A DNA stretch of 64,000 bases, taken from Bradyrhizobium sp. G127. GTDB taxonomy: Bacteria > Pseudomonadota > Alphaproteobacteria > Rhizobiales > Xanthobacteraceae. A model generated the notes under the pieces. The model worked only from the letters and a program-made list of their open reading frames with translations, had not been told where the DNA came from and searched no databases. Below, piece by piece: positions 29,796 to 45,446 of this stretch. Where the stretch lies: positions 868,001 through 932,000 of the forward strand of contig NZ_JAKFGN010000001.1 in NCBI RefSeq assembly GCF_021502575.1, given 5' to 3'. Position 1 is the first letter of the stretch; each line of letters starts with the position of its first letter. Made by a program: the position numbers and the translations under genes.

Positions 29796-29870
29796 GGGCG
29801 CGTAGCTCAGCGGGAGAGCACCTCGTTGACATCGAGGGGGTCACAGGTTCGATCCCTGTCGCGCCCACCA
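29796..29870 (+). tRNA. tRNA-Val(GAC)
   Basis: A 75-base cloverleaf with acceptor GGGCGCG pairing CGCGCCC, and a D-arm GCTC...GAGC. The anticodon stem is CCTCG/CGAGG with loop TTGACAT (anticodon GAC); the T-arm carries GGTTCGATCC, and CCA is encoded. It marks the boundary between core genome and the mobile region. Confidence 0.96.
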
Positions 29871-30128: not shown

Positions 30129-31733
30129 TTATCGCGGGTTGAGTCCAAGGGCCTCGAACTGTCGGGTCCACTCGGCGGGAGCATCGCGGAGCCGCTCGAC
30201 ACCAATGCCACGTGGCAGCCGGCCTTCGACTGCGGCTTTAACGAGAGCGGGCGCAAGGAAGGCCAGCGAGATCGTCATATTAACCTGACGAACGCTGCAC
30301 TTTTCGCGGGCGGCAATTTCTTCGACCGCCTTGATCTCACCTGACACAACCTCGTTTAGCCAGCGCCGGCCGCGAGCGATGGCAGCCACAAGGCGCGTGC
30401 GCCGTTCGGTGCGGATCGGCCGGACGTCAGCTCTCGATTTATTGTGCGGTAGCAGGATCTCTTTGAATTTTCGAGATGGCGGCTTCTCCCAAGCGATGGT
30501 TAGGCTCTCGTCGTCGCCATCTGGATGCTGCGATTTCAGGGTGAGGATCAGCCGATCAGTGTGCACATCGATGCGCGCAACATGCTCCAAGATGGAGTTA
30601 CGGTCGGCCCTTTGTGCCGGGTCGGAACGAGGCTTCTCGTTTTGCGCAATGAGATGTTCATTCAGTGCGTTGGTGACGGCGTCCTCGACCTGAGTTGCAG
30701 CAATACGAGAGACCGATCCAACTAACGCAATTTTTGACTGCCCATACAAATGAGGCGACGAGACGTAGTAGCGATACCGAATGCCGGCTTTGGTCGCGTG
30801 GGTAGGGATCATGCGGTGGCCGGAACCATCGTATAGCAATCCCGTTAGCAAATAGTCCGACTTGTTGCGCTGGATGGTGCGATGAGATCGTTGGCTCGTC
30901 AGTTTCTGCTGAACCGCTTCAAACAACTCTCGTTCCACAATTGCGGGCTGCTCGCCCGATAGAATCTCATTCTTGTATGTGACCTCACCGATATAAAATC
31001 TGTTGCGCAAAAGATAACAGAGTGAGCCCCGGCCGAAGGGAATTCCCCCACGCGTTTGGCCTGTTGCAAGCAGCTTCGACTTTGTGAAGATCTTTTGATC
31101 ACTGAGGTTCCGCATCAGCGCGTGCACGCCGCCGAGTTCAAGGTATCGTTGGAAGATCGTCCTGACCCGGTCGGCCTCCTCCTCGACGACCGCGATCTTG
31201 CCGTCGTTCATCGCATATCCCAAGGGGAGGGGGCCGCCGACCCATATGCCTTTACGTTTTGAGGCTGCGATTTTGTCGCGAATTCGCTCAGATGTGACTT
31301 CTCGTTCGAACTGGGCAAACGACAACAGCACGTTCAACGTCAGCCGACCCATGGAGGTCGTCGTATTGAACTGCTGGGTGACCGAGACGAACGATACGCC
31401 GTGTGCATCAAACAGTTCCACGAGCTTGGCGAAGTCGGCCAGCGATCGTGTCAACCGATCGACCTTATAGACAACGATGACGTCAATCTTCCGATCACGG
31501 ATGTCGTCCAGCAGCCGTTGCAGGTCAGGACGGTCGGTTGACCCACCGGAGTACCCGCCATCGTCATACCGCGACCGGATCAGCGTCCAGCCGGCATGAG
31601 CCTGACTCTGTATATATGACGACGCTGCATCGTATTGGGCATCCAGCGAGTTGAACTCCTGATCGAGTCCATTGTCGGTCGAGACTCGCGTATAGATGGC
31701 GCAACGTACAGCCTTGATTGAGGTCGTCTTCAC
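30129..31733 (-). CDS. Large serine recombinase
   Basis: A 534-residue site-specific recombinase. The N-terminal resolvase domain (about 8-155) shows YTRVSTDNG with catalytic Ser18 and VVYKVDRLTRSL with the paired arginines. A recombinase domain (about 165-270) and a zinc-ribbon-like/coiled region follow. Its start overlaps the DUF2924 gene by 4 bases. Large serine recombinases integrate and excise mobile elements; this one begins the accessory block after tRNA-Val. The target site is not deducible. Confidence 0.92.
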   Translation of the reverse strand: MKTTSIKAVRCAIYTRVSTDNGLDQEFNSLDAQYDAASSYIQSQAHAGWTLIRSRYDDGGYSGGSTDRPDLQRLLDDIRDRKIDVIVVYKVDRLTRSLADFAKLVELFDAHGVSFVSVTQQFNTTTSMGRLTLNVLLSFAQFEREVTSERIRDKIAASKRKGIWVGGPLPLGYAMNDGKIAVVEEEADRVRTIFQRYLELGGVHALMRNLSDQKIFTKSKLLATGQTRGGIPFGRGSLCYLLRNRFYIGEVTYKNEILSGEQPAIVERELFEAVQQKLTSQRSHRTIQRNKSDYLLTGLLYDGSGHRMIPTHATKAGIRYRYYVSSPHLYGQSKIALVGSVSRIAATQVEDAVTNALNEHLIAQNEKPRSDPAQRADRNSILEHVARIDVHTDRLILTLKSQHPDGDDESLTIAWEKPPSRKFKEILLPHNKSRADVRPIRTERRTRLVAAIARGRRWLNEVVSGEIKAVEEIAAREKCSVRQVNMTISLAFLAPALVKAAVEGRLPRGIGVERLRDAPAEWTRQFEALGLNPR

Positions 31734-32239
31734 GATCGTGCCTCAGTCACCGATTCTTCCTTGTCTCTGAGGCCGAAGAAGCGAGGACCGTTCCATCTGG
31801 TGCCGGTAATTGCGAAGGCAATCTTGGTGAGACTGTCATAAGTTTTGCCATTCCACGCGAACCCATCCGCCGTCACCATCACTCGTTGCGACTTCCGATC
31901 CCATTCCCGCACCAATACTGTTCCGGGCGTAAGTTCAGTCCGTTTCTGATCGGAGCTTGCCAAACGCGCGGATAGCTCAATCCGTGATTCCTTGACTGTG
32001 GTCCGGTCCAGAATTTTTCTCGTCTCGTGATCAAGATCGCTGAGGCGGTCGGCCTGGATCTGATAGGCGAGAATCCTAAACAACAGATGTCGCGGCAAAT
32101 GATCAGGGGCGGGTCTTTGAAACACGCTTTGCCATCGCATGCGGAGGCCCTTGAAGCCGAGACCGCGCAGATGCGCGGTCTCGTCCTCAATGGAAACTTT
32201 GACTGTGTTACGACCGTTTCCGTTTTTCCTATCGCCCAT
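31730..32239 (-). CDS. DUF2924 domain protein
   Basis: About 169 residues from ATG 32239. The core includes LRMRWQSVFQRPAPDHLPRHLLFR (in part), PGTVLVREW and GTRWNGPRFFGL, the DUF2924 signature. It overlaps the recombinase start and lies four bases after the DUF3489 stop, forming a three-gene operon. DUF2924 proteins are regular partners of alphaproteobacterial serine recombinases, perhaps as accessory DNA-binding factors, which is inference. Confidence 0.85.
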   Translation of the reverse strand: MGDRKNGNGRNTVKVSIEDETAHLRGLGFKGLRMRWQSVFQRPAPDHLPRHLLFRILAYQIQADRLSDLDHETRKILDRTTVKESRIELSARLASSDQKRTELTPGTVLVREWDRKSQRVMVTADGFAWNGKTYDSLTKIAFAITGTRWNGPRFFGLRDKEESVTEARS

Positions 32240-32243
32240 CGCA

Positions 32244-32717
32244 TCAGGCCGCCTGTTTCGGCCTGTCGACCGCAACAGGAGAGGCCTTGCGATCCCTGAT
32301 GCGATAAACCCGTCCCTTATCGCTTTCTTCGGAAACAAGATTGAGACCGAGCTTCTTCTTGACGACGCCTGCGAAGAAGCCGCGTACCGAGTGTTGCTGC
32401 CAGCTGGTCGCCTTCATGATGGCGGTAATGGTCGTGCCTTTTGGCTGGCACAGCATCGTGAGCACGGTAGCTTGCTTTGAAGACTCACGTGCGGGCTTTG
32501 CCACTGGAGCTTGGGCGGGAGGCACTTTGGATGGCTTCGAATGTGGAACAGTTTCGAAGGAACGTGCGGAGGACTGTTCAGTGACGCCTTGAACGCGTGA
32601 GCGTGCTGCCTTGGCTAAACGAGTCGTGTTCACTTTCGATGGTTGTCGTGCCTTGGCGGCGGGTTTACGCGCTACACCTCCTTTGCGGGCGGGATCTTTG
32701 GCTTTTTGGATGTTCAT
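32244..32717 (-). CDS. DUF3489 domain protein
   Basis: A 157-residue protein. The first ~85 residues are Lys/Arg/Ala/Pro-rich and probably disordered; the C-terminal ~65 hold the DUF3489 winged-helix-like domain ([20 protein letters not shown], then [16 protein letters not shown]). The layout suggests DNA binding. It is first in the DUF3489-DUF2924-recombinase set. Confidence 0.82.
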
Positions 32718-32820
32718 GGGATCTCCTGTGGGTCAACGGCAACATCGGGTGCTGCCACTGACCCGGCCCGCCGATCTCAATGCGAGGGCGGGGGAGGTCC
32801 CAGTTAGGGAAAGATAGTGA

Positions 32821-33051
32821 TTATGTGGTTTCAGCAAACAGGTTGCGTTTGATCGTCAGCGCTGCCTTGAACAGGTCCCGTGCCTCATGCACCAGACCTT
32901 CAAAGTCCATCAGGATCTGCACGGCACGATCCACGCTGCCATCGCGCGCGCAGCTCTCGGCAGCTTTCGCGATACTTAGAGTTTCTTCCAGCTTGCCGCG
33001 GATTTCCGTTACGAGTGCGGCGACCACGTTATTTGCGGCGACATCGGTCAT
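32821..33051 (-). CDS. Small helical protein of unknown function
   Basis: 76 residues from ATG 33051 behind a good AAGGAG ribosome site; the longer upstream frame is not supported. The sequence is almost wholly predicted helix with heptad-like spacing (VTEIRGKLEETLSIAKAAESC; LMDFEGLVHEARDLFKAALTI), so a coiled coil or helical bundle is likely. It lies about 100 bases before the DUF3489 gene in the same direction. Confidence 0.65.
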   Translation of the reverse strand: MTDVAANNVVAALVTEIRGKLEETLSIAKAAESCARDGSVDRAVQILMDFEGLVHEARDLFKAALTIKRNLFAETT

Positions 33052-33707
33052 CAGGGTGCTCCTTTTTTGCGTACCACCACACACGCTCCGTTCGCCGCTG
33101 AAGTCGAGCGGATTGTGAGTAATCTTGTGGCTTTGTTGGCCGGTAACGGAGCATCCTGTGATCCTGGTTTTCAAGGAATTTCGCCGAGCTGCGCACGCGG
33201 AAATCACAGTGCAATTCGGGGGCGACATGGGTGCTTTTAACCGCTTGGTCGGCGTGGCCAGATACTAGGTGAATAACGCATTGCAACGGGGCTGGCTTAT
33301 TGAGGTACCATCGGCGCGTGTTTCTAATAGGAACTATTTTCTCGGATTTGGCTTAGGTTAGGGCCGTGGATACGTCCGGGGCTTTCGTCCCGCGAGGTTG
33401 ATGTGCGCTTTTTGCGTCATAGTGGCATTAACAAGGGGCTCACCCGTCTCCTGATGCCAATTTTATAAGTAGAGTCAGCTATATAGCGATCTACAAAGTC
33501 TCTTTTTGGCTGCCGCATAGCCCAATCCTGACAATTCGCGATTTTTGGCAAACGCTCGGGACCATGGCCGTATCTGTTACGGACGTTATGGAGACGCATT
33601 AGCGCAGCTCACCATCTCGGGCAGCGCAGGCAGATATCTCTCAAGGCGTGCAATTCGAGCTGTATGCACGTCGTCCGCCGGTGCTCCAAGGTCTAAGGAG
33701 CCCCAAA
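33052..33707. other. Intergenic, divergent control region
   Basis: About 650 bases between the small helical gene and the ParB-like gene. I recognise no coding frame. It holds the TAATAGGAACTATTT palindrome (33325-33339) that resembles one before the MBL gene. The rest is unassigned. Confidence 0.45.
33325..33339. promoter_or_regulatory. Candidate XRE-type operator, copy 1
   Basis: AATAG-GAA-CTATT is an inverted repeat within TAATAGGAACTATTT. A TTGAGG 19 bases upstream of TAATAG could form a weak promoter with it. Similarity to 41248-41263 suggests one regulator binds both. Confidence 0.4.
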
Positions 33708-34184
33708 ATGGTTCAAAAATTGAATACGAAGGTCATCCCTTTTTCCCGCATCCAAGTGTCCCCTTCGCGTTTGCGTCGCAAGAATGTCGCGGCGCTGCGT
33801 GAGGCGATGCAAGTGATCCGCAAATATGGTCAGCCGCGCCCGCTGATCGTCGGTCCGGACTATCAGCTTCTTTCCGACACGACTTCTTATCTGGCACTCA
33901 AAGCGTCGAACTATGAGTTTGTGAAGACGCTTAAGCTGACGACGCCTTCGCCGGCGGCCGTTCGTGCTGTCGGCCGCCTGCTGGTTTGCTTTGAGGTCAT
34001 CAATCGCCAAGCGGAAGTCTTCAATGAGGCGCTGGCATCTCTCGACCGCATCGCGGAGCTTGATGTCCAATATCTTGTGCTCGAACTGCTGCCGGTCATG
34101 ATTACCGGTACTGGTGAGCTGTCGCATTGCGTTTCGCCGGCCTTGGTTTCGGACGCGGGCGACCGCACCCCGCTCGAAATCTAA
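33708..34184 (+). CDS. ParB-like domain protein
   Basis: 158 residues from ATG 33708 after AAGGAG. The first ~75 residues resemble a ParB/sulfiredoxin N-domain (IPFSRIQVSPSRLRRKN, then GQPRPLIVGPDYQLLSD), but the GERR-type motif of true ParB is replaced by SDTTSYLALKA, so CTP hydrolysis may be lost. The C-terminal half is helical. It precedes a ParB-domain methyltransferase fusion by 10 bases, suggesting a partner protein. Confidence 0.7.
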   Translation: MVQKLNTKVIPFSRIQVSPSRLRRKNVAALREAMQVIRKYGQPRPLIVGPDYQLLSDTTSYLALKASNYEFVKTLKLTTPSPAAVRAVGRLLVCFEVINRQAEVFNEALASLDRIAELDVQYLVLELLPVMITGTGELSHCVSPALVSDAGDRTPLEI

Positions 34185-34194
34185 TGGGTGCGAC

Positions 34195-35646
34195 ATGACC
34201 CATAAAAACTCTCTCGAGATTGTCTATCTCAAGGCGACGGCTATCAAGCCGTCGCCCCATGCTGCGCGCCAGCACAGCAGCGCGCAGCGTCGCAAGCTGA
34301 AGGCCATTCTGCGGCAGTTTGGTCAAGTTGTGCCGCTTCCGTTGGACGCGGCGACCGGCACGCTGATTGATGGCCATGCCGTGTTCGATGCTCTGGTCGA
34401 ACTCGGTCACGACGAGATCGCCGTGGTGCAGTTGGAAAACCGCTCTGAGCCGGAGGTTCGTGCCCTCCGGCTTGCCCTGAATCGCGTCGCCCAGGACGCT
34501 GTCTGGGATAACGCCAAGCTGCGCGGCGAGTTCGAATACCTGATCAGCGTTGGTTTCGACCTTGATCTCGGCGGCTTTGAAGCGGTGGAGATCGATATGG
34601 CCTTGTCGATCGATACGCCGGCCGCCAACACCGTTGAGGAAGAAGCGCTCGATGACCTTGCGCCGATGGCTGGTCCGTCGGCCGCAAAGCCTGGCGATGT
34701 TTTCCGCCTCGGTGATCACCTGATCGGTTGTGGCGATGCCCGCGATACGGCTTTCATCCGTGACCTTGTAGGCACCAATACAGTCGCCTGCGTGTTCAGC
34801 GATCCGCCTTACAACGTGCCGATCGATGGCTTCGTGTCTGGTCTCGGCAAGACGCGTCATCGTGAGTTCGCTATGGGTACCGGCGAGATGTCGCGCGACC
34901 AGTTCGTGGCGTTCCTGAGCACGACGGTGGCCGCAATTAAGCCCGTTCTTGCCGACGGCGCGATTCTTTTTCTCTGCATGGATTGGAGGCATGGCAGTGA
35001 ATTGTGCGAGGCTGCGGCGCAAAACCATCTCGAACAAAAGAATCTTTGTGTCTGGACGAAGAGCAATGCGGGCATGGGAAGTTTTTATCGCAGCCAGCAC
35101 GAGCTGATTTACGTGTTCAAGCATGGCGAGGGATCGCATCAGAACAATTTCGGTCTTGGCGCCAGTGGCCGCTCCCGCTCGAACGTCTGGCAGTATCGCG
35201 GCGTCAATGCCTTCGGCAAGGACCGCATGGACCTCCTTGGTATTCATCCGACCGTGAAGCCGGTCGCGATGATCGCCGACGCATTGCGTGACGTCACCCG
35301 TCGCGGTGATCTCGTGCTCGACGTCTTCCTGGGCTCGGGGTCGACGTTGATTGCGGCCGAAGAAACCGGCCGCGTCTGCATCGGCGTCGAGCTTGATCCG
35401 GTCTATGTCGATGCCGCCATCCGGCGCTGGCAAAAGCGAACCGGCAAGAATGCGGTTCATGCCGCCACCGGCGAGACCTTTGACGCGATCGCGGAACGCG
35501 TCGTGTCGCCGGTGACAACGATGGACGTGGCTGTCGCCGAGCTGCCTGCTGGCGCGGCCGCCACCGGCGCCTTGGTCGCCGCAGACCTGCCCATCGCTTC
35601 CACCAACGTGACAGAGGCTAGCGTGACGGAGGCCGGCGATGTCTGA
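34195..35646 (+). CDS. ParB-domain DNA methyltransferase (beta-class N4/N6)
   Basis: 483 residues. An N-terminal ParB-like domain (about 5-130) with IDGHAVFDAL is joined to a DNA methyltransferase domain. Motif IV (SDPPYNVP, near 202) precedes motif I (FLGSGSTLIA, near 377), the beta-class order. HPTVKPVAMI is the motif before motif I. ATG 34195 is chosen over a frame-extending ATG in the upstream gene. Such fusions occur in phage and integrative elements and are usually solitary; no restriction nuclease is adjacent. Confidence 0.85.
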   Translation: MTHKNSLEIVYLKATAIKPSPHAARQHSSAQRRKLKAILRQFGQVVPLPLDAATGTLIDGHAVFDALVELGHDEIAVVQLENRSEPEVRALRLALNRVAQDAVWDNAKLRGEFEYLISVGFDLDLGGFEAVEIDMALSIDTPAANTVEEEALDDLAPMAGPSAAKPGDVFRLGDHLIGCGDARDTAFIRDLVGTNTVACVFSDPPYNVPIDGFVSGLGKTRHREFAMGTGEMSRDQFVAFLSTTVAAIKPVLADGAILFLCMDWRHGSELCEAAAQNHLEQKNLCVWTKSNAGMGSFYRSQHELIYVFKHGEGSHQNNFGLGASGRSRSNVWQYRGVNAFGKDRMDLLGIHPTVKPVAMIADALRDVTRRGDLVLDVFLGSGSTLIAAEETGRVCIGVELDPVYVDAAIRRWQKRTGKNAVHAATGETFDAIAERVVSPVTTMDVAVAELPAGAAATGALVAADLPIASTNVTEASVTEAGDV

Positions 35647-36013
35647 GCAGGAGGATGATAAGGTCGGCTACCGCAAGCCGCCCGCCGGAACCCGTTTCAA
35701 GCCCGGACAGTCCGGCAACCCGAACGGCCGCCCCAAGGGCAGCGTCAATCTGAAGACGGATCTGCGCAGTGAGCTTTCGGAAAAGATCCGGATTCGGGAG
35801 GGCGAGCGCAGCCTCAAGGTCTCCAAGCAGCGCGCCATGCTGAAGGCGCTTGTCGCCAAAGCACTGAAGGGCGACGCTCGCGCGGCCAACGTTGTCTTGA
35901 CGCTGGTCGGTCGGTTGTTCGAGGCTGAAGCTGTGGCAGAGCAGGTGCCGGCGCTGACATCCGACGACCAAGCGATCCTCGAGCGCTTTCTCGCGCGGCG
36001 TCTGGCCGAATAG
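35639..36013 (+). CDS. DUF5681 domain protein (terminase-associated)
   Basis: A 124-residue protein opening with FKPGQSGNPNGRPKGS, the DUF5681 signature, then a helical basic region. It overlaps the methyltransferase gene by 8 bases and precedes the terminase large subunit by 64 bases. DUF5681 proteins often occupy the small-terminase position, so a DNA-recognition role is plausible. Confidence 0.82.
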   Translation: MSEQEDDKVGYRKPPAGTRFKPGQSGNPNGRPKGSVNLKTDLRSELSEKIRIREGERSLKVSKQRAMLKALVAKALKGDARAANVVLTLVGRLFEAEAVAEQVPALTSDDQAILERFLARRLAE

Positions 36014-36077
36014 GAAATGCGGATCATTTCGGCCGGCGCCGATCGGCGCCGGCCGCTCGTTTCTGAAAGTAGGACCT

Positions 36078-37580
36078 ATGCGTTCTGATCTTCAAATCTT
36101 TCGTGCGGTCATGAAGAACGACCTTCAGGCGTTTCTGGAGGGCGCCTTTCCGGTCGTTGATAACCGCTGGGCGCTCGAGGTCGCGCCCTATCTGGAATAT
36201 TTGGTCAACGAACTGACGGGGGTTGCTGAAGGCCGTGACACCCGGCTCATTATCAATCTGCCGCCACGTCACCTGAAGTCCGTGTTGACGTCCATCGTGT
36301 TCGTTGCTTGGCTTCTCGGTCGCAATCCGAAGCTGCGCATTGCGGTGATTTCTCATAGCCAGGCCTTGGCCTCAGATCTGGCATCCAAAACGCTGCAGCT
36401 GATCAACTCGGATTTCTACCAGCGGGTTTTTCCGAGCTTTCAACTCCGTGACAACGGCCGCAAGGCCATGGACTTTGTCACCGTCGAGGGCGGTGGCCGC
36501 TATGCGGCCTCGTTCGAGACCGGCATCACGGGCCGTGGTTTCGACATCATCATTATCGATGACCCGATCTCGGCCCATCACGTCAAGTCGGAAAAGGAAC
36601 GCCAGAACGTCAACGAAAACTTTGACGCGATGATCGCGTCGCGCCTCGACGACCAAATCAGAGGCGCCATGATCGTGGTCGGCCAGCGTATGCATGAGGA
36701 TGATCTGTCCGGCAGTCTGCTTCAGAAGGGCGGCTGGAAGCACGTCTGCCTGGCTCTGGTGGCCGAGGAAGACGCGGTTTATTCCTTCGGCAACTCGACC
36801 TGGGATCGAAAGACCGGCGAGCCGCTGCTGACAAATCAGTGGCCTGCCGAGGTCATCAAGCGGAAGCGGGAAGAGGTTGGCGAGTCGATCTTTGCTGCCC
36901 AGTATCAGCAGAACCCGTCAGCGGCACTAGGTGAGCTGATCCGGCCGGGCCAGATCAAGCATTTTGATGACCTGCCGCCGGACGCGCGGCGGATTACGCT
37001 GAGCTGGGACACGGCCGTCAAAACCGGATCGGACAATAGCTACACGGTGTGTCTCGTGATCGCCCGCGATATCCGGCGTCACTATGTCATCGACGTGCTG
37101 CGCTCACGTCTCGACCCCGTTCAGATGCGCGATGCCGCTCTCGAACTGATTACGGCCTACAAGCCGGCAAAAATCCTGATTGAGGATGCCAGCTCAGGAA
37201 GCGGCCTTTACAGCATGCTGTTCGAGCGTGGTCATCATGCCGAACTTCGCCCGACCGGTGGACGCGGCAAGGAAGAGCGGCTTGAGAGCCAACTCCACGT
37301 TTTCGCGCAACACCGGGTTCTGATCAAAAAGAATCAACCCTGGACGGTTGAACTCGAAAGTGAGCTGATGCGTTTCCCATTCGGAAAGCACAACGATCAG
37401 GTGGACGCGCTGACGCAGTATCTCGCCTGGGTCGCTGAAAGTCCCATGGCCAACCCTGTGGTGATGGGCACCGGCGGGATGGATGCGCGTATCGAGCGCG
37501 CGCTTTCTCGGCGACTTTGGCCCCTCGCAAAGGGCGACAATCCACTCCGTCCACGCGGCAAACCCCTTCGCCGGCGGTAG
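36078..37580 (+). CDS. Phage terminase large subunit
   Basis: A 500-residue packaging ATPase-nuclease. Walker A-like PPRHLKS lies near 62-68, and Walker B IIIIDDP near 155-161. The RNase H-like nuclease region begins with SWDTAVKTGSDNSY near residue 310 and contains LIEDASSGSGLYS and NDQVDALTQYLAW. In phages it packages DNA into proheads. No portal, protease or capsid gene follows, so this is a remnant or a satellite-type module. Confidence 0.9.
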   Translation: MRSDLQIFRAVMKNDLQAFLEGAFPVVDNRWALEVAPYLEYLVNELTGVAEGRDTRLIINLPPRHLKSVLTSIVFVAWLLGRNPKLRIAVISHSQALASDLASKTLQLINSDFYQRVFPSFQLRDNGRKAMDFVTVEGGGRYAASFETGITGRGFDIIIIDDPISAHHVKSEKERQNVNENFDAMIASRLDDQIRGAMIVVGQRMHEDDLSGSLLQKGGWKHVCLALVAEEDAVYSFGNSTWDRKTGEPLLTNQWPAEVIKRKREEVGESIFAAQYQQNPSAALGELIRPGQIKHFDDLPPDARRITLSWDTAVKTGSDNSYTVCLVIARDIRRHYVIDVLRSRLDPVQMRDAALELITAYKPAKILIEDASSGSGLYSMLFERGHHAELRPTGGRGKEERLESQLHVFAQHRVLIKKNQPWTVELESELMRFPFGKHNDQVDALTQYLAWVAESPMANPVVMGTGGMDARIERALSRRLWPLAKGDNPLRPRGKPLRRR

Positions 37581-37642: not shown

Positions 37643-38032
37643 TCAGAACGGCAGCATGGGTGCCTCGAGGTAGACTTGCCTTTTTTCGACGTCGGCCCAG
37701 GACATGTTGAAGTACACCGGCTTCCGCCCAAGGTTCGTAAAGACGTCGGCGACGCAAACGCGGTGACGGACTTCGTTGTTATCGTCGAGCAGGTCCTTCC
37801 CAACGACTCCTATTTCGCCGATCTTGAGCAACTTCAGGCCGAGCGCAGCTTGAGGCGCATTCTTGAAGGCATCCTGCAGCATGTCGCGGGTGGTGTTGCT
37901 GTTGCATTCGGGAATGCTGGCTGGGCCACCATAGCCGCCTGTTGCAAGGCGTAGCGTGGCGATGACACCTCCGAACAGAGTTGCGAACGCAATACTGGTC
38001 ATAAGGTTCGATTTTGAAAACGACATTGTCAT
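37643..38032 (-). CDS. Hypothetical protein with N-terminal signal or anchor
   Basis: 129 residues. An N-terminal hydrophobic stretch (about 10-30) could be a signal peptide or single anchor. The body contains two cysteines (IPECNS, HRVCVAD) and a beta-rich pattern ending in YLEAPMLPF. It converges with the terminase gene. No family is recognised. Confidence 0.55.
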   Translation of the reverse strand: MTMSFSKSNLMTSIAFATLFGGVIATLRLATGGYGGPASIPECNSNTTRDMLQDAFKNAPQAALGLKLLKIGEIGVVGKDLLDDNNEVRHRVCVADVFTNLGRKPVYFNMSWADVEKRQVYLEAPMLPF

Positions 38033-38139: not shown

Positions 38140-38868
38140 TTATTTTTTCAGGTTGAGGTAGGCCGATGACAAGGGCGCAGCGCCGAGGAGTGCCGTCAGT
38201 CGCTGCGCCTGTTCGTACTGATCAATCAACGTGATCTCGAAGGCGGTGACAAAATCGCTGTCGAACATCGGATTGTAGCGATCAATCACAGCGGCGCAGC
38301 GCGCATCCAGCCGGTCGAGCGAAAATGCGGTCGGTGTCGTCGATAAGGGCTGTTCGGAGGCAGAGCCAGTCTCGTCAGCGATGGTCGGATTTGGTGTTAT
38401 GAATTTCGAAGTCAGGCCGATCGTCCTGACCGTGATGGTACGAATGGCCGCATCTGTGCCATTGCACAGATAGACCGGCATGGTCTTCGGGCTGCGGAAG
38501 TCCGGAAAATACAGAGTGAGGCTGGCCGGCGCTTTCTCAGGTGCCGGGGTGACATAGCCGCGCTCCCGCGATGGCTCCGGCGCGAACGCTACCGGAATGC
38601 TTGAAATCCGCGGCGAAAACTCCGACCCGCTGCCGATGGCCTCGGTACGCGCGATCAGCAGGGTGGCGCCGGACTGTTTGCTGTCCTCCATGGCTTGCCG
38701 CAATTGCGGGCGCGCGAAGCCGTCAGTCTCGGGCTCAATGTATTCAGCCTGGACAGCTGCCTGATGGGCTTCGATCCAGGTTTTGACGGCCTCACGTTGT
38801 TCTTGCAGTGCAATATCAGAGTATGCGGGTTCACTCGATCGGATGCGGTAATAGGCAATAACCTTCAT
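38140..38868 (-). CDS. Resolvase-like N-domain fused to unknown C-domain
   Basis: 242 residues. The first ~85 resemble a serine-recombinase N-domain (VIAYYRIRSSEP, then ALQEQREAVKTWI, GFARPQLRQAMEDS and LLIARTEAIGSGSEF). The RLxR arginine pair is absent, so recombination is unlikely. From residue ~90 the sequence is unrelated: a Pro/Ser linker, a beta-rich segment (LTLYFPDFRSPKTMPVYLCN) and a helical end. No known family is recognised for the C-part. Confidence 0.65.
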   Translation of the reverse strand: MKVIAYYRIRSSEPAYSDIALQEQREAVKTWIEAHQAAVQAEYIEPETDGFARPQLRQAMEDSKQSGATLLIARTEAIGSGSEFSPRISSIPVAFAPEPSRERGYVTPAPEKAPASLTLYFPDFRSPKTMPVYLCNGTDAAIRTITVRTIGLTSKFITPNPTIADETGSASEQPLSTTPTAFSLDRLDARCAAVIDRYNPMFDSDFVTAFEITLIDQYEQAQRLTALLGAAPLSSAYLNLKK

Positions 38869-39003: not shown

Positions 39004-39987
39004 TCAGAAGAATTCACCCGCCGACCGGGTGCTTCCGATCGCTTTGATTTTAAGAGCTGGCTGGTGCTCCCGCAGGCGCTTGGCGTCTCGTTCCCAGCGC
39101 CCATCGCGCTGATCGCCATCGAAACCGAACACAATCAGCCGGGGATCAGGATCAATCTCGGCCTTGACTTGGCCTGAGGCGATGGCGGCGATCAGGGGAT
39201 CAGGTTCGAGTGGCAATCTGCTTGAGGGAAGGGCAGTGCGGGCCGCAGTTTGCATGGTGTGGAGACGGACCAGCGCCTGACAGACAGCGACGTAGCGCTG
39301 TCGCAGTGTTGCATCATGCTGTCTGAGCGTTGCCTGGTAACGCACGATCTGAGCCAAAACGGCAGGCTCACCTTTGGCCCTCAAGGCCGGATTGCTGAAA
39401 TGCTTGGCCTCATGGAAAACGATGAACGGCTTGCCGCCGCGGTTCTCTACGGTGACGACATCCAGCCGGTCCTGAGACCGATCAATCGGCGGGGCGTCCG
39501 CTGAATGGGCATCAGTGTCTGCCAGACTTTCGTCTATGGAAGAGTTTGCCCGCAGCAGCGACAGTTCGACGTCGATCACTTTTGAACTGCCGACGATCAG
39601 CGGATGCAATCCGCTCTTTTCAGCTCCAGCAAGATCGGTGGCCGAGCGGATCATGTCGGAGAGTGTCGATGGGCCAGCGTATTGCGACCAACCGATATCG
39701 GATGGTTGAAAGTGTCCATCGTGATGAAGCTGAGCCAGCACCTGCTGCTGACGGATCAGGTATTTAGTATGGGTCCAGGGAATAAGTCGGCCGTTTCCGC
39801 CATCGTCGATCCGGAAGATCGAGGCACCCCGGTGGTAGACATTGAGTGAGTTTGCTCGCACCGCAATGAACACGTCGTCCCGTAGCAAAACGTCGCGCCA
39901 CCACGATGGCTTCTGAGCGAGATTGTCGAGCGCATCGAGGAACGCCTTACTCACACCGTAGCTTGAGGACGTCTGCTGAATGGTCAT
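39004..39987 (-). CDS. Putative RecB/Cas4-like PD-(D/E)XK nuclease
   Basis: 327 residues from ATG 39987, which overlaps the stop of the MBL gene (ATGA). Nuclease-core residues are spaced as in RecB-type enzymes: Asp176 (DRLDVV), Glu193-x-Lys195 (HEAKHF) and Gln213-x3-Tyr217 (QIVRY). The N-terminal ~130 residues include IFRIDDGG and GRLIPW and show no known domain. Fold is inferred from motifs only. Coupling to the MBL gene suggests that the two proteins act together on nucleic acid. Confidence 0.7.
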   Translation of the reverse strand: MTIQQTSSSYGVSKAFLDALDNLAQKPSWWRDVLLRDDVFIAVRANSLNVYHRGASIFRIDDGGNGRLIPWTHTKYLIRQQQVLAQLHHDGHFQPSDIGWSQYAGPSTLSDMIRSATDLAGAEKSGLHPLIVGSSKVIDVELSLLRANSSIDESLADTDAHSADAPPIDRSQDRLDVVTVENRGGKPFIVFHEAKHFSNPALRAKGEPAVLAQIVRYQATLRQHDATLRQRYVAVCQALVRLHTMQTAARTALPSSRLPLEPDPLIAAIASGQVKAEIDPDPRLIVFGFDGDQRDGRWERDAKRLREHQPALKIKAIGSTRSAGEFF

Positions 39988-41231
39988 GTTGCAACGTCCC
40001 ACCATTCGCCATCATTCTTGAGACTGACAGCCTGGAAATGCGCTGGAAACTGCTCCGGCTCATAGGTATGGATCGGCACCAGCATCTTCGGCTGGATCGC
40101 CTCCGCCAATCGCTTCAGATCGGGGATGCTGGCGTGGCCGGAGGTATGGGCGTGATCGAGCGGGATGCCTCGTGCTTCGAGCTCGGCGAGGAGGGCGAGG
40201 CCGCGCTCCTGTTTGAGATAGCCGTCCCATTGCGACCAGATGGCGCGTGCGCCGGACAGGCAGCCGGCATGATCGAGATCGCGCAGCATAGCCGGTCGAA
40301 AGAGCATCGCCGCCCGAGGAGCCAGGTCCTCAAGTCGCTCCACGAAAACGCGGTTGGTCTTGTGAGGATCGAGCAGGTCAAAGCGGCCGCCGCGCTTGAT
40401 CTGGATGCGCTGATACTGCGGGACGTACACCGCAATATGTGGCCAGTCCGATTGAGGGATACTGGCGTTCTCCGTCGCGCGAAGAATCTCGGCGGCATAG
40501 AGATCGATGATCAGCGTTCTGCCGGTGCGCTTGCAGGCCCGATACAGGCTGACCATGCGATCGATGTTTTGCGCCGAGGCTGCGACCAGCGCTAGGCCGT
40601 CCGTTGCCTCAAACAGGTCAACGAAGCGCTGTTCAACTTCGGCCTCGGCCGGAAAGACGTGATCAGAGCTGAGGCGGCCAAAACTCGATCCTTCCATCAG
40701 CATCACGTCGATGGATCGTGGAGGATGGGTCACAAGGCGCTCGAACAGTGCAGCTTTGCGGCCGTGCGCCCGGATATCGCCAGAATAGAACAGGCGCTTG
40801 CCGTCAGCTTCCACCTCAAGGGCGTAAGCATCATAGGCGGAATGATCGACCAGATGTGGCGTTACCCGGAACGGGCCGAACTGCAGCGCCGTGCCACTTG
40901 AGAACTCGATTGGTCTTACCGGCACGTATGGCTTGGGCACGAACGGGGCTGCGGCCTTCAGAATGCGGTGGGTTGCAGCGCCCAGCGCAACCGGCAGATC
41001 AGCGCCCGCGAGGTGGGCCAGCCCCCAATGATCGACATGACCATGGGACAGAACCAGAGCCAGCAAATCCCCGCCGCCTGCAAGTCCGTCTACTGACGGA
41101 TGGACGCTGACCTCGTCCGCATCGCCGTTCAGAGGCAGTCCTAAATCCAGCAGAATTCGGCCACCCTCGGCGGCCAGTTCGATGCAGGTCCCGCCAATTT
41201 CCTTAGTCCCGCGATGAATGCGAATGCGCAC
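39984..41231 (-). CDS. RNase J/CPSF-like metallo-beta-lactamase-fold protein
   Basis: 415 residues. Zinc ligands are His63-x-His65-x-Asp67-His68 (SHGHVDH), DHSAYDAYAL, SGDIRAHG and the C-terminal SGHASIPDLKRLAE and LVPIHTYEPEQF. This order fits the RNase J / beta-CASP-related hydrolases, but the length is short of the usual ~550. The stop overlaps the nuclease start. A divergent XRE gene shares its promoter. Nucleic-acid cleavage is likely; RNA or DNA substrate is not determined. Confidence 0.85.
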   Translation of the reverse strand: MRIRIHRGTKEIGGTCIELAAEGGRILLDLGLPLNGDADEVSVHPSVDGLAGGGDLLALVLSHGHVDHWGLAHLAGADLPVALGAATHRILKAAAPFVPKPYVPVRPIEFSSGTALQFGPFRVTPHLVDHSAYDAYALEVEADGKRLFYSGDIRAHGRKAALFERLVTHPPRSIDVMLMEGSSFGRLSSDHVFPAEAEVEQRFVDLFEATDGLALVAASAQNIDRMVSLYRACKRTGRTLIIDLYAAEILRATENASIPQSDWPHIAVYVPQYQRIQIKRGGRFDLLDPHKTNRVFVERLEDLAPRAAMLFRPAMLRDLDHAGCLSGARAIWSQWDGYLKQERGLALLAELEARGIPLDHAHTSGHASIPDLKRLAEAIQPKMLVPIHTYEPEQFPAHFQAVSLKNDGEWWDVAT

Positions 41232-41247
41232 AACTGCCCCAAATCAG

Positions 41248-41287
41248 TAATAGGGACATTATAGTGCGTGTTTTAATGGGCCGCCAA
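41248..41287 (-). promoter_or_regulatory. MBL-nuclease promoter with candidate XRE operator
   Basis: Read on the minus strand, TTGGCG (41287-41282) and TATAAT (41263-41258) are 18 bases apart. A TAATAGGGACATTATA palindrome (41248-41263) covers the -10 and start region, so a bound regulator would repress. A similar palindrome occurs at 33325-33339. Confidence 0.55.
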
Positions 41288-41303
41288 GTCGTTTGTTTCG
41301 CTT

Positions 41304-41564
41304 ATGAAAGCGACAGCGCTCGTGGCCTGGAATGTCCGAAAACTGCGGGTTAAGCGCGGCCTGTCGCAGGAAGCGCTGGCGGTCGATGCCGGTGTGGACA
41401 GGTCGTACGTCGGGCGAATTGAGCGTGGGGTCGAGAATCCTACCGCCGAGACATTAGAGAGATTGGCCGCGGCCTTGGACGTCCCTGTCGCTGACCTTCT
41501 GATTGTCCCAAAAGCAAACGAAAAGCCGCCGGCTACGCTTCGGAAGGGGCGGAAGAAGCGATAG
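41304..41564 (+). CDS. XRE-family HTH regulator
   Basis: An 86-residue protein with one HTH_3 domain (about 9-65): LRVKRGLSQEALAVDAGV, then YVGRIERGVENPTAETLERLA. A basic C-terminal tail follows. It diverges from the MBL-nuclease operon with 72 bases between starts and is the natural candidate to bind the operator on that promoter. Confidence 0.87.
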   Translation: MKATALVAWNVRKLRVKRGLSQEALAVDAGVDRSYVGRIERGVENPTAETLERLAAALDVPVADLLIVPKANEKPPATLRKGRKKR

Positions 41565-42418: not shown

Positions 42419-42736
42419 ATGTCGAAATTGGTCTTCATATTGCCTGACGGTACAACGCAGACGGTAGCCGCCGTCCCTGACGCAAGTGCAATGAGGCATG
42501 CTGTCGATAACGGGGTTCCTCTCGATGCGGATTGCGGCGGCGAATGCATGTGCGCCACCTGTCATGTCCACGTTGATCCGAGATGGTTCAGCAAGCTTGA
42601 GCCAGCCGAAGAACAGGAAATCGATATGTTGGGTATCGTAGATGACCCGAGCCCAACTTCACGCCTGTCGTGCCGAATCCGAATGACCGAAAGGCTTGAC
42701 GGTCTTGTACTGCATCTGCCTCCGACGCACCGCTGA
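42419..42736 (+). CDS. 2Fe-2S ferredoxin (adrenodoxin type)
   Basis: 105 residues. Cluster cysteines are Cys39, Cys45, Cys48 and Cys85 (CGGECMCATC and SRLSCRI), the C-x5-C-x2-C spacing of adrenodoxin/putidaredoxin ferredoxins. Preceding a P450 and followed by a ferredoxin reductase, it very likely carries electrons to the P450. It is the first gene of a three-gene class I system. Confidence 0.93.
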   Translation: MSKLVFILPDGTTQTVAAVPDASAMRHAVDNGVPLDADCGGECMCATCHVHVDPRWFSKLEPAEEQEIDMLGIVDDPSPTSRLSCRIRMTERLDGLVLHLPPTHR

Positions 42737-42773
42737 CCGCGCCGTCCGACGTCAACTGACGGGGAGATCTTTT

Positions 42774-44045
42774 ATGAGTGTTGTGACCACCGAAGTCGTT
42801 CGTAACTTAGTCGCTGAGCACGAGCGTTTGGCCTATGCAATGCCTATCGAGGACATTGTCGTGGCAGACTCCGCGCTGTTTCAGCAGGGGGTATGGATGC
42901 CGTATTTTCAACGTCTGCGGCACGAGGATCCCGTTCACTTTACGCCCAAGAGCCGCTTTGGCGCGCATTGGTCAATCACGAAATTCAAGGACATCCAAAC
43001 CGTTGACTCAAACTGGCGCGTGTTCTCATCCGATACTGACCGCGGTGGAGTGCATATAGGCGACAAGCCGCCGGAGAAACGCATACGTAGCTTCATCGCG
43101 TCGGATCCGCCGAGGCAAGCAGAGCAGCGGAAAGCCATCCAGCCAATTGTATCCGCCGGTAGCCTTGCAGAGATTGAGACACTCATACGGCAACGAACTG
43201 GAGCTCTTCTTGATCGATTGCCGCGTAATGAGACGTTCGATTGGGTAGCTCGCGCTTCCATCGAGCTAACGTCGATGACTCTCGCAACTATCTTTGATTT
43301 TCCGATCGAGGATCGGCGCCTACTTGCCCATTGGTCGGATGCCTCAATTGTCGATCTGTTGGCTGGTGGCCCTATAGATAGCGAGGAGAAACGAGGTGTA
43401 GAACTCGCAAAATGTTTGGATGCGTTCAAACTGCTTCGGGAGGAAAAACTTAAGCGTCAACCGGAGAACAATCTCATCTCCATGATCGCTCACAGCCCGG
43501 CTTATCAGGGCATTTCTGAGAGGGAATTTCTCGGCAATCTACTGCTGCTCATAATCGGTGGTAATGAGACAACGCGAAACTCTATGAGTGCAAGCGTTTT
43601 GCTCCTTAATGAAAATCCCAACGAGCAATGCAAACTACGTGAAAATCCTGAATTAATTGAGAGCATGGTAAGTGAGGTTATTCGCTTCCAATCACCAATT
43701 CTCGCGTTCCGGCGAACCGCGACTCAGGATACGCAGTTGGCTAATAAAATCATTCGCGAAGGCGAGAGAGTGGTAATGTGGTATATTTCGGGAAATCGGG
43801 ACGAAGACGAGTTCGAAGAGCCTCACCGTTTTCTGTTGGGTCGCGACAACTATCGCAAGCACATCGCATATGGTTTCGGAGTGCACCGTTGCGTTGGGAA
43901 TCGGCTAGCAGAGATGCAGTTGCGCGTACTTTGGGAAGAGATCCTCGCTCGCGACCTCAAGATTGAGGTAGTGGGTCCGCCTAAGCGGCAGTATTCGACC
44001 TTCGTGCATGGCATCATGGAATTGCCAGTGATCATCCGGCCGTAA
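42774..44045 (+). CDS. CYP153-type cytochrome P450
   Basis: 423 residues from ATG 42774 after GGGGAG. The heme ligand is Cys373 (FGVHRCVGNRLAEMQL), the I-helix is IIGGNETTRNS with the acid-alcohol pair at about 265-266, and the ExxR is Glu301-Arg304. LLNENP, MWYISGNRD and the late VVGPPKRQYSTFVHG segment match the CYP153 family, which hydroxylates the terminal carbon of alkanes and fatty acids. Substrate cannot be read from sequence. Codon use is AT-richer than the chromosome. Confidence 0.92.
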   Translation: MSVVTTEVVRNLVAEHERLAYAMPIEDIVVADSALFQQGVWMPYFQRLRHEDPVHFTPKSRFGAHWSITKFKDIQTVDSNWRVFSSDTDRGGVHIGDKPPEKRIRSFIASDPPRQAEQRKAIQPIVSAGSLAEIETLIRQRTGALLDRLPRNETFDWVARASIELTSMTLATIFDFPIEDRRLLAHWSDASIVDLLAGGPIDSEEKRGVELAKCLDAFKLLREEKLKRQPENNLISMIAHSPAYQGISEREFLGNLLLLIIGGNETTRNSMSASVLLLNENPNEQCKLRENPELIESMVSEVIRFQSPILAFRRTATQDTQLANKIIREGERVVMWYISGNRDEDEFEEPHRFLLGRDNYRKHIAYGFGVHRCVGNRLAEMQLRVLWEEILARDLKIEVVGPPKRQYSTFVHGIMELPVIIRP

Positions 44046-44204
44046 GCAGAAAAAATTGCAGCGTTTGCGGACGATCTGTCACGCTGCATCTTGCAGGATA
44101 CCCGCGAGCGCACGCAGTCTTTCGGAAACGTGCAATTCAAGCGGTCGTCACTCAGGCTGCGCAGTTTGCCCTATTAGCTGCATTATCTTTGGGAGCGCGA
44201 TGAC

Positions 44205-45446
44205 TTGGCACTCGATCCTATCGTTATCATCGGCGCCTCTCATGCGGGAGTACAGATGGCAGCTTCGGCTCGTGACGCGGGTTGGGAGAATGAAATCGTT
44301 CTCTTAGCGGAAGATGCGCTCCTACCTTATCATCGCCCACCTCTATCCAAAGGTCTCCTTACGGGAAAAATCTCCGTTGCGGAAATCCCTCTGCGTGGAG
44401 AGTCTTGGTACGAAAAGAACAATATAGTTCGCCTGACCGGACGCCGAGTCACTGCGGTCGATAGACAGCGCCATCGAGTAATTCTTCAAGGTGGCGAGCA
44501 AATTCCATACTCTCGTCTCGGACTTGCAACAGGCGCCCGTGTGCGACGTCTTTCCTTACCGGGAGGTAAACTAGACGGCATATTGTATCTAAGAGATTTC
44601 GCAGACGTCGAGAAATTGAAGTCGCAGCTTAGACATACACACTCGGTTGTTGTTATCGGAGGTGGTTTCATAGGATTAGAGGTGGCATCTAGCCTCTGCA
44701 AAATGGGCAAGAAAGTGACCGTGCTTGAAACGTTTCAGCGCCTTATGCCCCGCGCGGTAAGCTCGGTGATTTCCGGCTGGTTTGGCCGTCGCCATACAGA
44801 ACGAGGCGTCAATCTAATTTTCAATGCACGAGTTGAAATGATTTTGAATGACGGCCGCGGACGCGCGGCGGGAGTGCTCCTCAGTAACGGGCAAAAAATA
44901 GCCGCCGATTTGATCGTCGCGGGGATAGGGGTTACGCCCGCTGTTGAACTTGCCAAGGCGGCGGACCTTACCTGTAGCGATGGGATCGTTGTTGATTCAT
45001 TAACTCGTACAAGTGATCCCTTTATTTTCGCCGCTGGGGATGTAACCAATCATCCGTCTGTATTTTCCGGTGGGCAACTGAGACTCGAGTCGGTCCAGAA
45101 CGCAACCGATCAGGCCAAAGTAGCGGGACAGATGTTGGCCGGAATAGCCTCTATCCCTTATGACGGTGTGCCTTGGTTTTGGTCCGATCAGCACGACGTG
45201 CCATTGCAGATAGTCGGCCTAGCAAGCAGCGCGGACAACTGCGTGGTACGCGGTGATTATGCTGGTGGCAAATTCTCGGTTTTCTCTTTCTCCGGGAGGA
45301 AGTTGGTGTGTATAGAAAGCGTCGATAGCTCCCGCGATCACGTCGCGGGACGCAAGCTTTTGGCTCTAACGAACGCACGATTGACCCCCGAGGAGGCCGC
45401 AGATCCCCAGTTTGATTTACTCGCAGCCGCCCGTGAAAGAAGCTGA
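44205..45446 (+). CDS. FAD-dependent ferredoxin reductase
   Basis: 413 residues starting at TTG 44205, with a possible GGGAGCG site before it. The FAD-binding start IVIIGASHAGVQ, the NAD(P)H-binding VVVIGGGFIGLEVASSL and the AAGDVTN motif are characteristic of putidaredoxin-reductase-type enzymes. It completes the electron chain NADH to ferredoxin to P450. A 159-base gap separates it from the P450 gene. Confidence 0.9.
   Translation: MALDPIVIIGASHAGVQMAASARDAGWENEIVLLAEDALLPYHRPPLSKGLLTGKISVAEIPLRGESWYEKNNIVRLTGRRVTAVDRQRHRVILQGGEQIPYSRLGLATGARVRRLSLPGGKLDGILYLRDFADVEKLKSQLRHTHSVVVIGGGFIGLEVASSLCKMGKKVTVLETFQRLMPRAVSSVISGWFGRRHTERGVNLIFNARVEMILNDGRGRAAGVLLSNGQKIAADLIVAGIGVTPAVELAKAADLTCSDGIVVDSLTRTSDPFIFAAGDVTNHPSVFSGGQLRLESVQNATDQAKVAGQMLAGIASIPYDGVPWFWSDQHDVPLQIVGLASSADNCVVRGDYAGGKFSVFSFSGRKLVCIESVDSSRDHVAGRKLLALTNARLTPEEAADPQFDLLAAARERS

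Follow-up and report, generated by a model that had tools for sequence, protein, structure and literature searches.

What does a compact metallo-beta-lactamase (MBL)-fold hydrolase gene do when its stop codon overlaps the start of a nuclease-like gene and a small XRE regulator gene diverges from it? The question is raised by a locus of Bradyrhizobium sp. G127 within a 64,000-nucleotide stretch of contig NZ_JAKFGN010000001.1 (assembly GCF_021502575.1, positions 868,001 to 932,000, forward strand; hereafter, the window). An earlier model-generated reading of this DNA, made without database searches (the sequence-only reading), had proposed a repressed defence or element-control module in a mobile island, and all three genes were recovered as it had placed them: the MBL/beta-CASP hydrolase gene at 39984–41231 on the minus strand (415 aa, GTG start), the PD-(D/E)XK-like nuclease gene at 39004–39987 on the same strand (327 aa), and the divergent XRE/HTH_3 gene at 41304–41564 on the plus strand (86 aa). 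We lean towards regarding the locus as a conflict module of two nucleases that is carried by a mobile element and most likely serves anti-phage or anti-element defence.

Given a nuclease start at 39987, the MBL stop codon (TGA) and the nuclease ATG share the nucleotides ATGA; the longest nuclease open reading frame opens six codons upstream, at 40005, and distant nuclease homologues start at or after the second methionine. By sequence identity the window belongs to Afipia: its MBL shows no difference from that of A. massiliensis, the nearest named record, and 16 kb of a further genome (G199) match the window at 99.99% identity.

Conservation and Distribution of the Gene Pair

Relatives were recruited by scanning 84,980 species genomes with an MBL alignment, which yielded 377 stretches encoding MBL relatives; the best 80 of the 377 were kept and, together with one contig from a viral collection, formed a sample of 81 loci. 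The relatives kept came from Alphaproteobacteria, Betaproteobacteria, Acidobacteria, Bacteroidia, Verrucomicrobia, Chloroflexi, Crenarchaeota, and Bathyarchaeota; metagenome assemblies supplied many of the distant loci. A member of the nuclease family was present at 62 of the 81 loci, counting some weak or partial matches, and co-occurrence in other genomes, which the sequence-only reading had put forward as a check, was thereby confirmed. Nearly all of the near-full nucleases (50 of 51) were encoded downstream of the MBL gene, mostly overlapping it by a single nucleotide or lying no more than 5 nt away, and on plasmid copies from Cupriavidus, Cereibacter, and Sphingomonas the nuclease precedes the MBL; nucleases lacking an adjoining MBL were fragments or interrupted copies. 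Divergence of the two proteins was correlated (r 0.755, n = 38 loci, matched in 0 of 2000 permutations), although shared descent of the hosts could partly underlie this. These observations support a pair that is conserved and co-inherited, and it has moved jointly between many bacteria and some archaea. Within Afipia its distribution is patchy (6 of 18 listed genomes).

At the 19 loci without the nuclease family, an unrelated protein with a D…ExK pattern adjoined the MBL in 11 cases, compared with 5 of 95 controls (Fisher 3.5e-7, an optimistic value because the pattern was picked after the sequences had been seen). Among ten of these alternative partners, Pfam returned a single sub-threshold PDDEXK_1 match (0.011), to one partner.

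The MBL Protein

The metal ligands HGHVDH (residues 63–68; H63, H65, D67, and H68), H130, and D152, as well as beta-CASP motifs A (E180), B (H366), and C (H388), were invariant across 46 MBL sequences, among them the complete HxHxDH set that had been noticed earlier. Of the two profile searches that had been suggested, the one for the MBL recovered Pfam Lactamase_B_2 (2.2e-12) and RMMBL (1.7e-4), whereas the nuclease returned no PD-(D/E)XK profile. The predicted MBL structure (predicted local distance difference test, pLDDT, 93.4) matched 2az4 best among solved structures in Foldseek (E 4e-27), followed by RNase J (2e-25), and the CPSF73 fold also matched; 2az4 (EF2904) is a compact protein from E. 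faecalis whose function is unknown.

The MBL protein is a compact beta-CASP enzyme that resembles RNase J and is complete. It scored 38.3 bits against the RNase J model TIGR00649, far below the curated cut-off of 400, and has no RNase J C-terminal domain; it had earlier been called short, which is correct relative to RNase J, but 415 aa is in line with 2az4 (429 aa) and TTHA0252 (431 aa), both compact beta-CASP proteins. The model and the full motif set ruled out an RNase J that is truncated or defective. RNase J, 2az4, TTHA0252, and CPSF73 have in common with the window protein the MBL and beta-CASP fold and the full motifs, including the motif C histidine; in contrast to RNase J and the compact beta-CASP proteins, to which its identity is ∼20%, it is accessory rather than housekeeping and usually sits beside a nuclease-like gene. 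A histidine at motif C is typical of RNA-acting beta-CASP members, and H388 suggests that RNA is the probable substrate.

The Nuclease-Like Protein

With the 39987 start, the residues singled out by the sequence-only reading fell exactly at Asp176, Glu193-x-Lys195, and Gln213-x3-Tyr217, and were invariant in 41 homologues; E141 was likewise invariant and E123, D139, and R174 almost invariant. Ahead of these motifs lies a conserved N-terminal beta domain. The predicted model (pLDDT 88.1; predicted template modelling score, pTM, 0.88) has a helix-strand-strand-strand-helix order, in which E123 lies in the opening helix, the three strands carry in turn D139 and E141, D176, and E193-x-K195, and the closing helix holds Q213/Y217; D139xE141, D176, and E193xK195 thus lie on the elements expected of a PD-(D/E)XK core. 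A diverged branch from archaea, Chloroflexi, and others retains the D-x-E, R-x-D, and E-x-K motifs (hhalign 95.6%) and has an N-terminal ‘AVRxxxLNVYYRG’ stretch in common with the family.

The residue motifs and the confident model argue strongly for a PD-(D/E)XK nuclease, an assignment kept at that strength because neither fold nor profile searches tied the protein significantly to a known nuclease. The likeness to RecB/Cas4 enzymes proposed from the residue spacing stands as far as the ExK and QxxxY pattern and the helix-strand-strand-strand-helix order are concerned, both of which are common to RecB, Cas4, and PDDEXK_1, but does not extend to a profile link with Cas4 or PDDEXK_1; the window nuclease also differs from these proteins in its distinct N-terminal beta domain and in having no helicase partner. 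Membership of the Cas4/RecB family was not supported, with no Pfam match of that kind among the 41 members and an hhalign value of 0.2% for Cas4. The substrate of the PD-(D/E)XK-like protein is probably DNA.

Regulation of the Operon

The XRE protein matched Pfam HTH_3 (4.8e-18) and, in PADLOC, HTH_VI (3.3e-15) and Control_protein (4e-15), a likeness to the controller proteins of restriction-modification systems. A related XRE gene diverges from the MBL gene in about two dozen loci besides the window, mainly within one alphaproteobacterial branch. The perfect 12-bp palindrome TGGCTATAGCCA was found in ten of the XRE–MBL intergenic regions and at no other place among 192 loci; the hosts are Methylobacterium, Rhizobium, Pseudochelatococcus, and other Hyphomicrobiales and, because they are related, the ten loci do not represent ten independent events.

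The promoter/operator region of the window operon occupies 41235–41287, equivalent to the site of TGGCTATAGCCA in the ten relatives. It contains a promoter-like TTGGCG-18-TATAAT (10/12) at 41287–41258 on the minus strand, of a quality for which about one occurrence is expected by chance in the scanned region. The palindrome that the sequence-only reading had seen over the promoter is borne out in that imperfect palindromes lie across it (ATAAT-GTCCCT-ATTAC and TGTCCC-N12-GGGGCA, conserved in Afipia), but a formal search found no inverted repeat of at least 8 bp in the window, and for this reason the stronger operator evidence is that from the relatives. The divergent small XRE gene and the conserved promoter palindrome of the relatives amount to a controller-type arrangement, with a weaker palindrome in the window itself, and the sequence evidence supports regulation of the operon by a dedicated XRE protein.

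The Island and Its Carrier Element

That the locus lies in a mobile island was confirmed. A tRNA-Val gene at 29796–29870 and its left flank are present in the 29 Afipia genomes searched, and most long matches stop at the tRNA; what comes after the tRNA in another Afipia is located from C1:967864 onward in this genome, which makes the island about 70 kb long (C1:897,871 to about 967,864). It spans 29871 to beyond 64000, with its far end outside the window, and the pair lies within its first 12 kb. Between the tRNA and the pair are genes for a large serine recombinase, DUF2924, DUF3489, a ParB-like/DNA methylase protein, DUF5681, and a terminase large subunit. The block from the recombinase to the XRE gene is conserved in other Afipia, ends just past the XRE gene, and two genomes carry it in duplicate. 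In the segment from the recombinase to the lone terminase large subunit (30129–37580) no capsid genes were noticed, and it has the appearance of an integrative element, phage-derived or satellite-like, with the nuclease pair at its far end.

Relatives of both genes are also carried on plasmids. Searches of viral contigs recovered no member of the nuclease family and one MBL, on an IMG/VR contig (L127:46-5292) that encodes the MBL, a D…ExK neighbour, and a PcfJ-like gene; these genes adjoin a large serine recombinase gene and one that is DUF2924-like, which is the carrier type of the window. In another Afipia (L031:6924-10900), the nuclease gene is interrupted by a two-gene istAB-like insertion, which clusters with annotated IS21 genes, and the MBL gene is mostly gone. 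Elsewhere in the island, translations of 42419–45446 resemble a ferredoxin, a P450, and a ferredoxin reductase, apparently a small catabolic cluster.

Accessory Genes and Fusions

A third operon gene (38140–38868, minus strand) encodes a 242-aa protein with an N-terminal Resolvase domain (Pfam 4.6e-6) and a C-terminal domain, and most of the closest loci have a gene of this type after the nuclease. The N-terminal domain is probably inactive, judging from the loss of the catalytic serine position (YYRIRSSEP in the window, YYRVRPNEP in relatives). A possible fourth gene in Afipia (37643–38032, minus strand), conserved among the Afipia copies, encodes a 129-aa protein with no family match in the library searches.

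Across the loci, five accessory kinds recurred, namely the 242-aa type, a small protein bearing the motifs GIFWFV and WPRGR, WYL regulators, a metallophosphoesterase, and a PcfJ-like protein; the same profiles found none of them in 17 control stretches. WYL regulators accounted for 8 of 145 neighbour proteins, metallophosphoesterases for 11, and ADP-ribosylglycohydrolases for 4, and PP2C-like genes were present at a few loci; neither WYL nor metallophosphoesterase was among the families matching at least two of 130 control proteins. Two of the accessory kinds also occur fused to the nuclease: in a Methylobacterium (L058) it is the C-terminal domain of the 242-aa type, and in a Bradyrhizobium (L079) the GIFWFV/WPRGR protein. 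The latter small family, seen near the pair at L034:5893-6297 and in relatives, has no Pfam or PHROGs match.

Proposed Function of the Module

In the favoured reading, the compact beta-CASP enzyme and the PD-(D/E)XK-type DNase would act jointly on invading nucleic acid and may form a complex. The divergent XRE protein would keep the operon nearly silent through the promoter palindrome, as restriction-modification controller proteins do, so that a newly arrived element would spare its host from harm. Defence is the probable benefit. The defence or element-control role suggested by the sequence-only reading is consistent with the nuclease pairing, the dedicated XRE gene with its operator-like palindrome in relatives, and the island, but a clear surplus of known defence families was not part of the picture.

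Several results weigh against this reading. PADLOC families at 1e-10 numbered 61 over 145 neighbour proteins and 44 over 130 random-locus proteins, which is not clearly above background in a comparison that used mechanical open reading frame calls on both sides, controls from the Afipia family only, and a broader set of test loci. Neither gene was found in phage records. For the nuclease, no convincing Pfam match was obtained in any of the 41 members, hhalign to PDDEXK_1 gave below 1%, and the predicted core, offered earlier as a refuting check, showed the residue order and topology described above but drew nothing at E ≤ 0.001 from the PDB or BFVD in Foldseek. Lastly, the metallophosphoesterase, PP2C-like, and ADP-ribosylglycohydrolase neighbours would also suit a role in RNA repair or signalling.

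Such a role has been weighed as an RNA-damage response or maturation module, in which the beta-CASP enzyme would trim damaged or foreign RNA, the PD-(D/E)XK protein would be its partner nuclease, and the accessories would mend ends or remove modifications. Besides these neighbours, the motif C histidine and the fold match to RNase J speak for it; we nevertheless consider it unlikely, as the accessories are clade-specific, the one near-universal partner is nuclease-like, and the commonest neighbour families include no RNA ligase or RtcB. Less likely again is an element-control or addiction module that would help the mobile element to persist, to keep out related elements, or to transfer, with the XRE protein as a timing switch. 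The position of the pair at the end of the conserved block, the double copies in two Afipia genomes, and the occurrence on plasmids and in transposon-like settings would fit, but the pair also occurs in unrelated element types and in chromosomal settings and therefore looks like cargo rather than the machinery of one element; moreover, no constant antitoxin-like gene accompanies it, and the XRE gene belongs mainly to a single branch. That the genes are chance neighbours or a decaying remnant with no joint function is highly improbable, for despite broken copies (an MBL frameshift in L030, the nuclease insertion in L031, and nuclease fragments or interruptions in L037-L039) this is contradicted by the pairing at 62 of 81 loci, the invariant catalytic residues, the retained overlap and order, the fusions, and the correlated divergence.

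Relation to Known Systems and Implications

As the sequence-only reading had found itself unable to name the module, so the family libraries searched held no name for it: in PADLOC 2.0 the nuclease and the MBL matched no families at E ≤ 1, and the window nuclease also had no match in NCBIfam or PHROGs. MBL nuclease–protease pairs have been described in Avs, Lamassu, Hachiman, and DRT systems (PMC12799240), where, as may be the case here, an MBL-fold nuclease is a portable partner in immune loci; the window MBL, in contrast, is of the beta-CASP type and its partner is PD-(D/E)XK-like. Cas14 of type VII CRISPR, an MBL-beta-CASP effector, likewise places a beta-CASP protein in a prokaryotic immune setting, and the first 72 residues of the window MBL match it weakly (8.9e-5; 8yhd 6e-4), but the score of 21 bits is far from the cut-off of 800. 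Restriction-modification C-proteins share with the locus a small XRE gene divergent from a nuclease operon and a promoter palindrome, whereas the conserved module here has no methyltransferase. A defence pair of beta-CASP and PD-(D/E)XK proteins was not described in the literature searched, from which subscription journals and preprints were mostly absent, and a published name may exist.

More tentatively, the loci may represent a widespread, unnamed class of prokaryotic immunity with a constant compact beta-CASP RNase, an exchangeable PD-(D/E)XK partner, XRE or WYL control, and clade-specific accessories, two of them fused to the nuclease in some hosts. If a role in immunity is correct, an RNA-type beta-CASP nuclease and a DNA-type nuclease would be joined in one portable module, and the exchange of nuclease partners would be a case of modular evolution. 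On the same condition, the many genomes in which the pair reads as ‘MBL fold hydrolase plus hypothetical protein’, with MBL relatives encoded in all 377 stretches recovered, would gain a testable function. The controller-like operator offers an immediate handle on expression.
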